From Deltaproteobacteria bacterium ADurb.Bin151 (GTDB lineage: Bacteria > Desulfobacterota > Syntrophia > Syntrophales > Smithellaceae), in assembly GCA_002070455.1 (NCBI GenBank), contig MWDG01000004.1, positions 1-64,000 of the forward strand: a stretch of 64,000 nucleotides of DNA. Direction: 5' to 3'. Positions 25,348 to 55,608 of this stretch are shown here, one piece after another (positions within the stretch are counted from its first letter, which is position 1; the number at the start of each line of letters is the position of its first letter). The notes under the pieces are model-generated. The model saw nothing but the letters and a program-made list of their open reading frames with translations. It made no database searches and was not told the origin of the DNA. A program made the position numbers and the translations under genes.

Positions 25348-25388
25348 TCCTAAGGGGGGCTCTAACCAAGTCCCCCATTTTTTTTCAT
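25348..25388 (+). terminator. GC hairpin with T-run near the rarA 3' end
   Basis: GGGGG and CCCCC arms separated by about 12 nt (around 25355-25377) are followed on the + strand by ATTTTTTTT. In that orientation it is a textbook intrinsic terminator, but no gene is read into it on the + strand. On the minus strand, the direction of rarA, the T-run is absent. Its role is unclear. Confidence 0.4.
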
Positions 25389-26734
25389 TTTTTCTCTTTA
25401 ACATTTTTCTGACGCCGCCAGACATTGACTCTTTCCCTGATCGTTTTTTCAAAACCGGCATCTGTCGGTTCATAAAGCACTTGTCCCTGAAGTTTTTCCG
25501 GGAGATATTCCTGGGGTACAAAAGCGTCCTCATAATCATGAGCGTATTTGTAGCCTTTGCCGTATTCCAGTTCTTTCATTAATTTTGTGGGTGCGTTGCG
25601 AATGTGAAGTGGTACGGGGAGATAACCGGTTTTGTTGATCAGGTCCTTTGTCTGGCCAAAACCTTTATATAATGAATTGCTTTTGGGGGCGGTGGCCAGG
25701 TAGACTGCCGCCTGTGCCAGGGCGAGTTCACCTTCTGGCGGGCCTATAAAATGAAATGCCTGCTGGGCGGCCATCGTCAGCATAAGCGCGTGGGGATCGG
25801 CATTACCGATGTCTTCGGAGGCGAATCTGACCATGCGGCGCAAAATATAGAACGGATCTTCTCCTGCGATCAACATTCTGCCCAACCAGTAAAGCGTTGC
25901 GTCCGGGTCACTCCCACGCATGCTTTTATGAAAAGCGGAGATCAGATTGTAATGTTCTTCGCCGTCTTTGTCGTAAAGCATAGATTTTTTCAGCAGAGCT
26001 TCCTGTACGGACTGTCCCGACAGCTTTCTTGCTTCCGGAGGCAGACCCTGCACCATTGAAGCAGTGGCTTCCAGATTGTTGAGCGCGGTGCGGGCATCTC
26101 CGTCGGAAATCCTGATAATGAATTGAATGGCATCATCATCGGCCTGAATACCAAATTTCCCCAGGCCCCGTTGTTCATCGGTAAGGGCACGCTTCAGAAT
26201 GATGGCCAGGTCTTCTTCCGTAAACTGTTTGAGGAGCATCACGCGTGTTCTGGAAAGCAGAGGGGCAATGACTTCAAAAGACGGGTTTTCCGTTGTGGCA
26301 CCGATCAGGGTGACAAGCCCGCTTTCCACATGAGGGAGAAAGGCGTCCTGCTGGGCTTTGTTGAACCGGTGTATTTCATCAACAAATAGAATGGTTTTTT
26401 GCTTTTTGGCTTCCCAGAGTTCTCTGGCGTCATCAATCACGGAGCGGATTTCCTTGACACCCGATAAAACTGCTGAAAAACTGACAAAGTTTGTTTTTGT
26501 TTCATTGGCTAAAATGCGTGCCAGGGTTGTTTTCCCCGATCCGGGCGGTCCCCAGAAAATCATTGAAAATAATTTGTCTTCCGCAATGGCACGCCTGAGC
26601 AATGTGCCTTCACCGGTCAGATGCGACTGACCCACATAGTCGGCCAGTTTCTGGGGCCTCATTTTTTCAGCCAGCGGCGCCGCGTCCATAACATCGCTTT
26701 CGGTTCCCAGACTGAACAAATCCAGATTCTTCAT
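25385..26734 (-). CDS. rarA: Replication-associated recombination protein A
   Basis: 449 residues. AAA+ ATPase with Walker A GPPGSGKTT (62-70), Walker B FVDEIHRF, then the MgsA/RarA C-terminal tetramerisation domain (RGSDPDATLYWLGRML, ASEDIGNADPHALM, GYLPVPLHIRNAPT). It acts at stalled replication forks and at lagging-strand gaps. The start overlaps the stop of a small Cys-containing protein by the 4-base ATGA, so the two are coupled. Confidence 0.95.
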   Translation of the reverse strand: MKNLDLFSLGTESDVMDAAPLAEKMRPQKLADYVGQSHLTGEGTLLRRAIAEDKLFSMIFWGPPGSGKTTLARILANETKTNFVSFSAVLSGVKEIRSVIDDARELWEAKKQKTILFVDEIHRFNKAQQDAFLPHVESGLVTLIGATTENPSFEVIAPLLSRTRVMLLKQFTEEDLAIILKRALTDEQRGLGKFGIQADDDAIQFIIRISDGDARTALNNLEATASMVQGLPPEARKLSGQSVQEALLKKSMLYDKDGEEHYNLISAFHKSMRGSDPDATLYWLGRMLIAGEDPFYILRRMVRFASEDIGNADPHALMLTMAAQQAFHFIGPPEGELALAQAAVYLATAPKSNSLYKGFGQTKDLINKTGYLPVPLHIRNAPTKLMKELEYGKGYKYAHDYEDAFVPQEYLPEKLQGQVLYEPTDAGFEKTIRERVNVWRRQKNVKEKK

Positions 26735-26988
26735 TTCTGCCTCTTCGATTTTTCAATGATTTCAATCAAGCTTGCAACCTTGTTTCCAGATTGTCCGCCG
26801 GCGAATCGTGACCATTCATCTTTGTTCAGATGATTTTTGAGAAAGGATGTAACGTCGAAAGATCTGAACCAGCATTGAATAATCCTTGAACAGGGCAGGT
26901 CGCCTGCTTCGCGCAGGCAGTAGGCAAAGTTTATTTCATCGCCCAGTTTCGGGCAGCGGGTTAATTTGTGGTCGTGTTCGGTCTTCAT
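26731..26988 (-). CDS. Small four-cysteine protein coupled to rarA
   Basis: 85 residues. Cysteines C12, C24, C33 and C39 sit in a CPxLG...FxYCxxExGxLPCxxIxxCW pattern that looks like a metal-binding knuckle (zinc or Fe-S). I recall similar small proteins as conserved hypotheticals in deltaproteobacteria, with no function assigned. The start at 26988 is chosen because a longer frame would run through the trpB2 terminator. Overlaps rarA by ATGA, which suggests a link to DNA repair or replication, but this is inference from position only. Confidence 0.65.
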   Translation of the reverse strand: MKTEHDHKLTRCPKLGDEINFAYCLREAGDLPCSRIIQCWFRSFDVTSFLKNHLNKDEWSRFAGGQSGNKVASLIEIIEKSKRQK

Positions 26989-27002
26989 AACGTTTCGAGT
27001 TT

Positions 27003-27049
27003 GTCGAAAAAAAGAAAAGCCGTCAAGAAATATATTTTCCTGACGGCTT
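27003..27049 (-). terminator. Terminator of trpB2
   Basis: Minus strand stem AAGCCGTCA / TGACGGCTT (27041-27049 with 27017-27025) followed by TTTCTTTTTTT (27003-27016). It starts 24 bp after the trpB2 stop codon. Confidence 0.85.
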
Positions 27050-27072
27050 GTAAAAAACATCAATAGCTCTTA

Positions 27073-28434
27073 TCAAGGTTTCGGGAAATCCTTGATGGCG
27101 TTCAATGCCCGTTCAATTTCATGATCCGGTAATTCATAGGCTTCTAATTTGCCTGCAAAGTAGGCATCATAGGCGGCCAGATCCACAAGGCCGTGGCCGC
27201 TCCAGTTGAAGAGGATCACTTTTTCCTTGCCTTCTTCTTTGGCGCGCATGGCTTCATCAACAACTGCCGCCAGAACGTGATTGGTTTCCGGTGCCGGAAT
27301 GAAGCCTTCGGAACGTGCCCATTTGACGCCTGCGTCAAAAGTCTTGAGCTGGTCGTAGGCTCTGGGTTCAACGAGATTTTCACGAACCATGTGGCTGATG
27401 ATCGGCGCCATGCCGTGATAGCGCAGACCGCCCGCGTGAATCGGCGCCGGAATGTAATCATGTCCGAGCGTGTACATGGGCAAAAGAGGCGTTGATTTGG
27501 CCAGATCGCCGAAATCGTATGCAAACGGGCCTTTGGTCATGCTGGGGCAGGAGGTAGGTTCTGCGCCGACGACTTTCACAGGTTTACCATGAATTTTGTC
27601 GCAGACAAACGGTGCGATAACACCTCCGAAATTGCTTCCGCCGCCGCAGCAGCCCATGACGACATCCGGGTAAATGCCGAGTTTTTGCATTTGCTTTTGC
27701 GCTTCCAGTCCGATGATGGACTGGTAGAGGATAACGTGATTCAGTACGCTGCCCAGCGCGTATTTCGTGTCTTTGCTGGTGACGGCATCCTCAATGGCCT
27801 CACTGATGGCAATGCCCAGGGATCCCGGAGAATCGGGGTGCTCCGCCAGCACATTACGTCCGGCCTGAGTGAGATTGCTGGGGCTGGGAATGCATTCCGC
27901 GCCCCAGGTGTTCATCATCATCCGGCGGTACGGTTTTTGTTCATAGCTGACCTTGACCATGTAAACGCGGCATACAAGATCAAACATTTTGCAGGCCATG
28001 GCCAGGGCGCTTCCCCACTGGCCGGCACCGGTTTCTGTCGTGATGCGCTTGGTTCCGGCAACTTTGTTATAATAGGCCATCGGGATGGCTGCGTTAGGTT
28101 TGTGCGAACCGGCGGGGCTGACGCCTTCATTTTTGTAATAAATCTGAACGGGGCAGCCCAGCAGCTTTTCAAAATTGCGGGCACGGTACAGGGGAGACGG
28201 ACGCCACAGCAGGTACTTTTGCAGGACCTCATCGGGGATATCAATCCAGCGCTGAGTGGAGGCCTCATGCTCAATGATATTCATGGGGAAAATGGCCGCC
28301 AGATCGTCAGGGGTGACCGGCTGACCCGTGCCGGGATGAAGCGGCGGCTTCATCGGGGTGGGCATGTCCGCCATAACATTGTACCATTGCTTTGGTATTT
28401 CGTGATCTTCCAACAATACTTTGACCTGTTCCAT
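27073..28434 (-). CDS. Tryptophan synthase beta-like protein (TrpB2)
   Basis: 453 residues, longer than standalone TrpB1 (about 400) and with the TrpB2 N-terminal extension (IPKQWYNVMADMP). PLP lysine K112 in AGSHKPNAA, ETGAGQWGSALA as the glutamate/ammonia-loop block, and GCCGGGSNFGG for the phosphate. TrpB2 joins indole and serine to give tryptophan, often without TrpA. No other trp gene is near. It is preceded by a tryptophan leader-peptide attenuator, which directly ties its expression to tryptophan supply and argues for a real role in synthesis or indole salvage. Start supported by AAGGAG. Closed by its own terminator. Confidence 0.93.
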   Translation of the reverse strand: MEQVKVLLEDHEIPKQWYNVMADMPTPMKPPLHPGTGQPVTPDDLAAIFPMNIIEHEASTQRWIDIPDEVLQKYLLWRPSPLYRARNFEKLLGCPVQIYYKNEGVSPAGSHKPNAAIPMAYYNKVAGTKRITTETGAGQWGSALAMACKMFDLVCRVYMVKVSYEQKPYRRMMMNTWGAECIPSPSNLTQAGRNVLAEHPDSPGSLGIAISEAIEDAVTSKDTKYALGSVLNHVILYQSIIGLEAQKQMQKLGIYPDVVMGCCGGGSNFGGVIAPFVCDKIHGKPVKVVGAEPTSCPSMTKGPFAYDFGDLAKSTPLLPMYTLGHDYIPAPIHAGGLRYHGMAPIISHMVRENLVEPRAYDQLKTFDAGVKWARSEGFIPAPETNHVLAAVVDEAMRAKEEGKEKVILFNWSGHGLVDLAAYDAYFAGKLEAYELPDHEIERALNAIKDFPKP

Positions 28435-28505: not shown

Positions 28506-28546
28506 GTTAAAAAAAATGCCATGGATCTTTTCTTCCCACGGCATTT
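28506..28546 (-). terminator. Attenuator terminator before trpB2
   Basis: 11-bp arms (28536-28546 with 28514-28524, one mismatch) with an 11-nt loop, followed on the minus strand by eight T residues. It lies about 72 nt upstream of the trpB2 start codon and is the conditional stop of the tryptophan attenuator. Confidence 0.85.
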
Positions 28547-28605
28547 CAATACGTCTTCAAGTCATGGGAAGGAGCTTCCCTGCCCATGCTCAGTTATGAA
28601 AGAGC

Positions 28606-28665
28606 TTACGGGCAGACACGTTTTGTCTGCCACCACCAGTTTTTGTTTGGAAAAACGTTTTCCAC
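28606..28665 (-). CDS. trp leader peptide with Trp-Trp-Trp
   Basis: 19 codons from GTG (28665) to TAA (28606-28608), with three adjacent TGG codons at residues 10-12. An in-frame TTG three codons earlier is an alternative start. The ribosome site is weak (GTGGA nine bases upstream). Trp is the rarest residue in proteins, so three in a row, followed at once by the first arm of an attenuator hairpin and then by a terminator before trpB2, is the classic sign of a regulatory leader peptide sensing charged tRNA-Trp. Confidence 0.75.
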   Translation of the reverse strand: MENVFPNKNWWWQTKRVCP

Positions 28666-28797
28666 GGACTGCAATCCACTTTCTTAATAATTGGCTTTTG
28701 CCTAACACAGCCGCGAAAGCCTTGTCAAGGCGAAATTAAAACATGGGATTGATAACTACCTTATGCTCCATATATTCTTCAGCTTTTGTGTTTTTGC

Positions 28798-28827
28798 TTG
28801 ACACGCCGCTTTCTGCGTCTGTATACT
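28798..28827 (+). promoter_or_regulatory. Promoter of the DUF3597 gene
   Basis: TTGACA (28798-28803), 18-bp spacer, TATACT (28822-28827), 50 bp upstream of the start codon at 28877. Strong match to sigma-70 consensus. It is divergent from the trpB2 leader. Confidence 0.75.
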
Positions 28828-28876
28828 AAAATATCAAAAATAATTTGTTAGTTATTACGCCTTGAAAGGAGTCACT

Positions 28877-29299
28877 ATGGGTCTATTTAGCAAGATTCTA
28901 GAGAAACTTGGTATCAACAAGCCGGCAAAGGCGGAAACAACTGCCCCGAAGACTCCCCCTGCTCCACAGGTTTCCCCTGTCCCACAATCTGCCCCGTCAG
29001 CGCCGCCGGTTGCTCCTGCCGCTCCTGTAGCGATCGCGGTTGTCGATGTCGTGGCGCAGTTGGAAAAACTTGCCGCTGCAAACCCCGAAAAGCTCAATTG
29101 GAAAGTTTCGATCGTGGATCTGTTAAAACTATTGGGTCTCGAAAGCAGCTTCGCCGCACGGAAAGAACTTGCTGTTGAACTCGGGTGTCCGTCCGAAAAA
29201 ATGGGCGATTCAGCACAGATGAATATGTGGCTGCATAAAACAGTGCTGCAGAAGATTGCTGACAACGGTGGCAACATTCCGAAGGAACTGCTCGACTGA
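28877..29299 (+). CDS. DUF3597 domain protein
   Basis: 140 residues, start with AAAGGAG upstream. Short N-terminal segment MGLFSKILEKLG, a Pro/Ala-rich linker (about 16-58), then the DUF3597 domain (about 59-140: VDVVAQLEKLA, LNWKVSIVDLLKLLGL, ARKELAVELG, NMWLHKTVLQKIADNGG). The domain resembles LysM-associated/KTN small helical proteins of unknown function that are often annotated near cell-envelope genes. No signal peptide, so it is probably cytosolic or peripheral. Monocistronic from a strong promoter, which suggests a well-expressed housekeeping or stress protein. Function not known. Confidence 0.8.
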   Translation: MGLFSKILEKLGINKPAKAETTAPKTPPAPQVSPVPQSAPSAPPVAPAAPVAIAVVDVVAQLEKLAAANPEKLNWKVSIVDLLKLLGLESSFAARKELAVELGCPSEKMGDSAQMNMWLHKTVLQKIADNGGNIPKELLD

Positions 29300-53898: not shown

Positions 53899-55608
53899 AT
53901 GGATGATCTTCTGAAAAAATCTTTTGTTGCCGGTGTCGAGCGGGTGGCGGCCTGGGCGGATCTGCTCGATGAGATCAATGTATACCCCATCGCCGACGGC
54001 GATACGGGGCGAAACCTGTTTGTCAGCCTTTCACCGCTTCGTTTTGCAGGTGAGCCCAAAGAGAAGCTTGCCCGTAGGCTTCTGATGACTGCGCGCGGGA
54101 ACTCCGGCAATATCGCCTCACAGTTTTTTTCGGCTTTTTATGATGTCGATTCTCCGAAGAATCTGAAGGCGGCCGTGCAGGAGGGGAACGCCCGGGCATG
54201 GAAAGCCGTCAGCGATCCCAGACTGGGGACGATGCTTTCCTTTTTTGATGCTCTCGAAGAAAATCTCAGTCAGCAGGATTTTACCCCGGATCAAAAGAGG
54301 GTGGATCAAATTGTGTCCTGCCTCGAGCAGGCTGTGATTGAAACACAGGACCTGCTGCCCAAACTGGCCGAGGCGGGAGTTGTCGACGCCGGGGCGCTGG
54401 GCATGTACATTTTTTTTGAGGGATTTTTCTGCACGTGGTCGGGATTTGCCGGTCCCTATCGACCGGTGACGGAGGTGTTCAAAGACCGCCTGCGGATTTC
54501 CCCGGAATTTCAGGAATCGGTAATCAACGGCTACTGCATTGACTTTGTGGTGAAAGCCGATGGTTCTCCCGATGATCTGGCCAAAATTACCGGCGGACAG
54601 GAAAGCGTTGTCATGATTCAGGAAGGTGATCTTTGTAAAATTCATTTGCACACCGAAGACAGGGAAAAGATGAAGACCCGGATCGGCGCGCTCGGAGCCG
54701 TTATCAACTGGGAGGACGACAATCTCTCCGAGCAGATCCGTGAATTCAGAAATGCCCCCGCTGATTCCGCGCTGCACATCATGACGGATGCCGCCGGTTC
54801 ACTTACCCGCGAAGACGCGAGAAAATACGGCTTCACCCTTTTGAACAGTTACCTGAATGTCGGCGACAAATCGCTGCCCGAAACCTGTTTTTCCCCGGCA
54901 GAACTCTACGCTGCCATGGAATCAGGAATCAAGGTATCCACATCTCAAGCCTCTGTTTTTGAACGGCATCAATCCTACGCCAGCGCTGTGGCCCGTTTTG
55001 AAAAAGTATTGTATTTGTGTGTCGGTTCCGCGTTTACGGGCAATTACGACGTGGCAAGCCAATGGAAAAAGGAGCATGATCCGGACAACCGCCTGATGGT
55101 TGTCGATACAGGTGCGGCGTGCGGCAGGCTGGGCGTGATTGTTCTGTCGACGCAGCTCTATTTCAGACACACCGGAGATGTGGAAAATACTTTTACCTTC
55201 GCCAAGGAGGCTGCCGCAGCATCCGAAGAATATCTTTTCCTGGAGAAGCTTCAGTACCTGGCCGCCGGTGGCAGGCTTTCCAAAACCGGTGCGTTCGTAG
55301 GCGATGTTTTGAAAAAGAAACCCGTCATTTCACCACAGTCGGAAGGCGCGAAAAAAGTAGGTTTTGTCAGAAATCAAAACGAACAGATTGATTTTGCGCT
55401 GGAGAAGATGGCGGCCTCATTGGGTAGGGATTCCCGCGCGCTGATCATGCTGGAATATTCGGATAATGTCGGTCAGGTGACACAGTTTATGGAAAAGATT
55501 CAAAATCTCTATCCGATGGCGGCTATTGCTCTTCAGCCTCTGTCGCTGACATCCGGCGCGCACATGGGACCGGGGACATGGGGCGTGGCGTTTTTGAAAA
55601 CAGGTTAA
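53899..55608 (+). CDS. Single-chain fatty acid kinase: DhaL + FakA-middle + DegV/FakB
   Basis: 569 residues. Residues 1-190 form a DhaL kinase domain with NVYPIADGDTGRN (DGDTG 33-37) and GNSG (67-70) for ATP-Mg. Residues 195-285 match the FakA middle domain, with HLH in KIHLHT (247-252). Residues 292-569 form a DegV/FakB domain: TDAAGSL, STSQAS (347-352), GSAFTGNY (376-383), YLAAGGRLSKTGAFVGD. In Staphylococcus FakA phosphorylates a fatty acid held by a separate FakB; here donor and acyl-binding modules share one chain. Expected product: acyl-phosphate. Its place between thioesterase and glycosyltransferase suggests it re-activates the acid released by the thioesterase. Confidence 0.85.
   Translation: MDDLLKKSFVAGVERVAAWADLLDEINVYPIADGDTGRNLFVSLSPLRFAGEPKEKLARRLLMTARGNSGNIASQFFSAFYDVDSPKNLKAAVQEGNARAWKAVSDPRLGTMLSFFDALEENLSQQDFTPDQKRVDQIVSCLEQAVIETQDLLPKLAEAGVVDAGALGMYIFFEGFFCTWSGFAGPYRPVTEVFKDRLRISPEFQESVINGYCIDFVVKADGSPDDLAKITGGQESVVMIQEGDLCKIHLHTEDREKMKTRIGALGAVINWEDDNLSEQIREFRNAPADSALHIMTDAAGSLTREDARKYGFTLLNSYLNVGDKSLPETCFSPAELYAAMESGIKVSTSQASVFERHQSYASAVARFEKVLYLCVGSAFTGNYDVASQWKKEHDPDNRLMVVDTGAACGRLGVIVLSTQLYFRHTGDVENTFTFAKEAAAASEEYLFLEKLQYLAAGGRLSKTGAFVGDVLKKKPVISPQSEGAKKVGFVRNQNEQIDFALEKMAASLGRDSRALIMLEYSDNVGQVTQFMEKIQNLYPMAAIALQPLSLTSGAHMGPGTWGVAFLKTG

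Follow-up and report, generated by a model that had tools for sequence, protein, structure and literature searches.

Introduction

Does a gene for a TrpB-like enzyme that stands apart from the trp operon respond to tryptophan, and what would such a response say about the purpose of its product? The question is raised by trpB2 in the window analysed here, a stretch of 64,000 nucleotides at the start of contig MWDG01000004.1 from Deltaproteobacteria bacterium ADurb.Bin151 (Syntrophales; Smithellaceae). The gene is of the trpB2_o type: it is not part of the trp operon, and the genome possesses trpB1 as well, which lies in a trpC-trpF-trpB1 cluster at the start of another contig (C46). For one trpB2_o gene the selective function was not identified (PMC1854888), and both a high affinity for indole and the use of phosphoserine have been cited for TrpB2 enzymes (PMC11917138). 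An earlier note on this DNA proposed that a tryptophan leader-peptide attenuator precedes the gene. Conserved Trp codons, conserved pairings and an upstream promoter element now support that proposal.

Results

Organisation of the trpB2 unit

The promoter, leader and gene all occupy the minus strand of the window (Table 1). The short reading frame with tandem Trp codons described in the earlier note is indeed present, and reads GTG GAA AAC GTT TTT CCA AAC AAA AAC TGG TGG TGG CAG ACA AAA CGT GTC TGC CCG TAA; no strong Shine-Dalgarno sequence was found before it. Tandem codons for the end product within a short leader frame, here WWW in 19 codons, are characteristic of the attenuator class. The probable -10 element is a weak match to TATAAT, preceded by an extended-10 TG (28707-28706, minus strand) and separated from the -35 element by an 18-nt spacer. 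A simple scan of the minus strand did not list this -10 and missed the leader element, because the terminator loop is longer than the scan allows and the -10 is poor. The trpB2 product scores 630.1 bits against TIGR01415 (cut-off 518.85) and 723 bits against NF009057 (cut-off 366). Since a terminator closes trpB2, the unit is monocistronic, consisting of promoter, leader, trpB2 and terminator.

Table 1. Features of the trpB2 unit, in coordinates of the window.
Feature	Position	Strand	Evidence
Promoter -35 element, TTGACA	28723..28728	-	TTGAC conserved upstream of relatives' leaders
Likely -10 element, TAGGCA	28699..28704	-	Conserved TGTGYTAsG stretch in relatives
Leader peptide ORF, 19 codons, GTG start, VENVFPNKNWWWQTKRVCP, UAA stop	28606..28665	-	Start site kept in relatives
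Three tandem Trp codons	28630..28638	-	96-100% conserved per base, 73 loci
Arm 1, GGCAGACA	28624..28631	-	1:2 pairing in 90.7% of cells, with two-sided changes in 3 pairs
Arm 2, TGTCTGCCC, with GCTC extension past leader stop codon	28602..28618	-	2:3 pairing
Arm 3, GAGCATGGGCAG	28580..28591	-	3:4 paired in 90.2% of cells
Arm 4, CTTCCCATG plus ACTT	28559..28571	-	4:5 paired in 89.6% of cells
Arm 5, AAATGCCGTGGGAAG	28532..28546	-	Alignment pairings
Arm 6, CCATGGCATTT, with eight-T run; intrinsic terminator with arm 5	28509..28524	-	5:6 paired in 94.9% of cells
trpB2, TrpB-like PLP enzyme (TIGR01415/NF009057)	27073..28434	-	HMM scores over curated cut-offs
Terminator after trpB2, 14-bp stem with T-run	27017..27049	-	Sequence

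Upstream lies a divergent DUF3597 gene (28798-29299, plus strand) with a near-consensus promoter, TTGACA-18-TATACT. Beyond the trpB2 terminator are a gene for a RarA-like AAA ATPase and a small ORF that belongs to no known family (25385-27063, minus strand); in many relatives, too, trpB2 has an ORF behind it, of about 450 aa.

Two alternative sets of pairings

Downstream of the leader ORF the minus strand carries GAGCATGGGCAG...CTTCCCATG and then AAATGCCGTGG...CCATGGCATTTTTTTT. All the pairings set out in the earlier note are found, both the 1:2 and 3:4 hairpins with the 5:6 terminator and its T-run, which together make up the termination form, and the antitermination alternatives 2:3 and 4:5; the cascade comprises six arms, however, not the five strands then counted. 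Arm 5 is shared, 28546-28536 pairing with arm 6 and 28540-28532 with arm 4, and an antiterminator mutually exclusive with a T-run terminator is another hallmark of the attenuator class. As judged from its pairings, the leader, with three successive hairpins and two alternative exchanges, conforms to the six-arm relay of the his type. The minus-strand fold has a z-score of -3.15, none of 200 shuffled sequences being as stable, and the window contains two copies of TGGTGGTGG where 0.38 would be expected. The plus strand gives a good fold too (z -2.85), the stems being symmetric, but a plus-strand reading was rejected because the minus strand is the one that carries both trpB2 and the Trp ORF.

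We assessed these pairings in an alignment of 66 leaders (A1), from which L030 and L044 were left out as false picks of coding sequence. In the termination form 92.2% of cells are paired and 12 of 28 pairs have changed on both sides; covariation is 0.233, compared with 0.169 in shuffled and 0.045-0.085 in slid controls, and sliding the 3' partners by 1-3 columns lowers pairing from 92% to 38-48%. The antitermination form is paired in 88.1% of cells, against 37-51% when slid in the same way, and its covariation barely exceeds the shuffled value (0.138 versus 0.125) because the core is nearly invariant. A core whose bases each take part in two or three pairings would be expected to vary little, and covariation there is hence weak evidence by itself. 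Within 2:3 the core is paired in 96.7% of cells and the extension in 72%, all four pairs of the latter having changed on both sides. The T-run terminator is present in nearly all relatives.

Conservation across Syntrophales

A TrpB-type match, counting both trpB types, was obtained in 95 of 99 related genomes, and 82 regions upstream of trpB2 were read, 81 of them long enough to judge. At 73 of these 81 loci in the order, and at 43 of 44 in the family, trpB2 is preceded by a short ORF containing two or more UGG codons, so that the conservation of Trp codons and pairings anticipated in the earlier note is borne out; eight of the 81 loci are without the leader. In 38 of the 43 family leaders a start codon (ATG in 31, GTG in 7) sits exactly 27 nt upstream of the first UGG. 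None of the arms in the drawn structures includes the first two UGG codons, and the conservation of these codons across the order is 96-100%, compared with 30-75% for the 27 nt that precede them. Since these codons are unpaired yet conserved, the pattern points to selection on them as codons rather than for RNA pairing. Variants with one Trp replaced keep the hairpins (WRW in L013 and L017, WQW in L063, WWR in L070).

Of 71 aligned leaders, 69 have TTGAC upstream, in most cases at a distance of 85-93 nt from the Trp codons, although in a few (L048 and L051, for example) the match is too near these codons for a promoter. A transcription start downstream of 28665 had been named as an observation that would count against attenuation; instead, the conserved promoter element precedes the leader.

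Outside WWW(Q/R) and a C-terminal VCP/ICP the leader peptide varies freely, and the codons of VCP/ICP form arm 2. This bears on the reading that the peptide acts mainly in trans, or as a small protein, with the hairpins incidental. The Sinorhizobium peptide peTrpL offers a precedent (PMC7298713), and precedent is what this reading draws on; the free variation of the peptide and the conservation of the RNA arms beyond the ORF speak against it, and we consider it very improbable.

Several loci depart from the common arrangement. L044 retains the promoter and has no attenuator. At L045, L046, L049, L059 and L082 the leader is lost and trpB2 lies behind a co-oriented ORF with a similar end, often NLWYRR.KG. 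In L012, L016, L026, L028, L036 and L043 an extra 100-300 nt separates the terminator from trpB2, several of these stretches resembling shared intergenic repeats. Matches to the pattern outside Desulfobacterota (in Celeribacter, Massilia, Devosia, Isoptericola, Mycobacterium, Actinophytocola, Cyanobium, Clostridia and Bacteroidales) were rejected, having no downstream trpB2 and mostly lying in long high-GC frames.

Ribosome masking and a model of attenuation

Ribosome positions were imitated in silico by blocking the bases that a ribosome would cover, with the transcript ended at arm 5, in 66 leaders. With a ribosome at the Trp codons, 2:3 forms in 54 of 66 and 4:5 likewise in 54; with a ribosome at the stop codon, 3:4 forms in 58, 4:5 in four and 2:3 in none; with no ribosome, 1:2 forms in 49 and 3:4 in 45. 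When the whole leader is folded, 66, 66 and 65 of 66 leaders (free, stalled and stop states respectively) form the terminator. Since the terminator wins at full length even behind a stalled ribosome, the switch would have to be decided before arm 6 emerges, and read-through would be kinetic. The transcript length at which 4:5 loses and that at which the arm-6 core emerges differ by a median of half a base. RNA polymerase hides roughly the last ten nucleotides of its transcript, which would place this loss near the end of the U-run, a position suggestive of a kinetic switch. Arm 2 and its GCTC extension are separated by the leader stop codon; a ribosome at the stop would therefore cover arm 2, and this placement is the geometry that attenuation needs.

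With high confidence we interpret the element as a ribosome-mediated transcription attenuator, a relay of three hairpins that makes expression of monocistronic trpB2 depend on charged tRNA-Trp. Sequence, conservation, pairings and in-silico folds form the basis of this model, and from them we infer the stalling, the kinetics and the cellular response. When tryptophan is ample, the ribosome would reach the stop codon directly after arm 2 and cover that arm; 3:4 would then pair, leaving arm 5 free, and terminator 5:6 would stop transcription. When charged tRNA-Trp is scarce, a ribosome stalled at the Trp codons would cover arm 1, permitting 2:3 to pair and releasing arm 4, which would capture arm 5 on its emergence, and polymerase would clear the terminator site before arm 6 could oust arm 4. 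Where translation fails altogether, 1:2, 3:4 and 5:6 would form and transcription would terminate. Under this model the cell would very probably make TrpB2 only under tryptophan shortage.

Other aromatic leaders in the genome and phylum

A covariance model of the leader (R1) was run over the same genome and 395 genomes of the phylum. In the same genome it found a second Trp leader, MKNIAVKLNLNNWWWWNLAGRIFRR, with WWWW and two tandem terminators, before trpE-trpG-trpD (L198; contig C44, 2657-2803, minus strand; TrpE identified by TIGR00564). The earlier note held that trpB2 is regulated by tryptophan with no other trp gene nearby; this reading is supported, but TrpB2 would not be alone under such control, because the trpE-trpG-trpD operon has this leader of its own.

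The same layout before trpE also helps to dispose of the simplest alternative, that the trpB2 element is an ordinary intergenic terminator with Trp codons there by chance. GC-rich hairpins with T-runs are common, and weak matches to the model elsewhere in this genome are plain hairpins. However, the Trp codons are kept at 73 of 81 loci while adjacent codons drift, and the upstream gene is divergent and hence supplies no upstream transcript to terminate. Conservation already contradicts this alternative, and its probability seems to us negligible.

A third, weak match (E 0.014) in the same genome is the leader MNRQSNANCNLFGFWFYYYYASVCLSLRRTW before a DAHP synthase gene. This leader (L221, 1462-1557; contig C8, about 55116-55272) carries FGFWFYYYY and two hairpins, and is a candidate general aromatic attenuator. 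Further weak matches in the genome, on C72 and C1, look like ordinary hairpins and were set aside.

Matches at E up to 0.001 were obtained in 138 of 395 Desulfobacterota genomes, some of them plain hairpins. Among the Desulfobacterota leaders read, those with Trp codons stand before trpE, trpB2, DAHP synthase and an aminotransferase; DAHP synthase and an aminotransferase are also preceded by F/Y-rich leaders, as is 2-amino-3,7-dideoxy-D-threo-hept-6-ulosonate synthase. In other Desulfobacterota, L202, L210, L214 and the second match in L199 combine leaders rich in F or Y with these tandem hairpins, the genes behind them coding for DAHP synthase, ADTH synthase, an aminotransferase and a 526-aa protein of unknown type. 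In one Thermodesulfobacteriota contig (L138) a Trp leader precedes a gene for a LivH-type permease, a candidate tryptophan or aromatic transporter.

Among these leaders, 23 of 29 allow an exchange between the last two hairpins through 4:5. In 14 of the 29, from relatives outside Syntrophales and including the trpE leader of this genome, a T-run follows the first hairpin itself, giving two coupled terminators. These double terminators favour another account of the trpB2 element: a Trp attenuator in which 3:4 is merely the decayed first terminator of an ancestral pair and 4:5 a by-product of sequence shared by the hairpins. Arms 3, 4, 5 and 6 do have a common GCCATGGG-like core, and the 4:5 complementarity could in part be a by-product of similar neighbouring hairpins. 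Against this account, G107 and A108 in the terminator loop (numbered on the first sequence of A1) serve 4:5 and lie outside 5:6 as drawn, and both are invariant or nearly so. Furthermore, without 4:5 a stalled ribosome would leave the terminator untouched, because 2:3 overlaps neither arm 5 nor arm 6. We regard decay as unlikely and favour the functional relay.

On a broader scale, Desulfobacterota may possess a phylum-wide set of aromatic attenuators, in which tandem hairpins are coupled by 4:5 and one stalled ribosome would disarm two terminators in turn. W-, F- and Y-rich leaders would thereby control trpE, detached trpB2, DAHP synthase, aminotransferases and the LivH-type permease, and in the Syntrophales trpB2 leader the first terminator would now be a pure relay. 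We judge the case for this generalisation to be evenly balanced.

Discussion

The E. coli trp attenuator consists of a short leader peptide with tandem Trp codons and a ribosome-dependent choice of terminator, and it controls tryptophan biosynthetic genes. The trpB2 leader has in common with it the tandem-Trp peptide, a predicted ribosome-dependent choice and a target in the tryptophan pathway, but the E. coli element (RF00513) has four arms and one exchange where the trpB2 leader has six arms and two. The earlier note was correct that the exchange is more elaborate than in E. coli trp; its kind is already known from the his attenuator, which alternates AB/CD/EF, EF being the terminator, with BC/DE (PMC10989985). 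Like that attenuator of E. coli and Salmonella (RF00514, His_leader), the trpB2 leader has six arms, with an exchange that ribosome position would set; it differs in having Trp rather than His codons, a different sequence and a lone trpB2 target. In the Rfam search no model covered the leader: Trp_leader (RF00513) gave no match at the gathering threshold or at E up to 10, and His_leader was the best sub-threshold match, its 24.7 bits falling below the gathering score of 49 for that family.

Trp attenuators have been predicted in Actinobacteria, including one for trpB2A of C. diphtheriae (PMC1262725). These likewise combine a double or triple UGG leader with a terminator, also before a trpB2-type operon; in C. 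diphtheriae, however, trpB2 is in an operon with trpA, whereas the gene described here is monocistronic, has other arm sequences and belongs to another phylum. A putative attenuator of the D. vulgaris aro-trp supraoperon (PMC1173090) is likewise an aromatic-gene attenuator from a related lineage, with a different operon as its target. A literature search on attenuators in Syntrophus and on TrpEb_2 regulation returned none, and an earlier prediction within reviews of trp attenuators is possible. Given the his-type exchange and these earlier predictions, the trpB2 leader is a known kind of device; its family, its lineage and its lone trpB2 target are new.

According to an Rfam-based survey, amino acid attenuator motifs are probably of gamma-proteobacterial origin with few transfers (PMC3766115). 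The trpB2 leader suggests that a lineage outside that survey has an aromatic attenuation regulon. Its chief use is as evidence on the role of a detached TrpB2 in tryptophan synthesis, a question that the attenuator makes testable: a Trp-codon attenuator found across the order is direct regulatory evidence, read from sequence, that the detached TrpB2 serves tryptophan supply.
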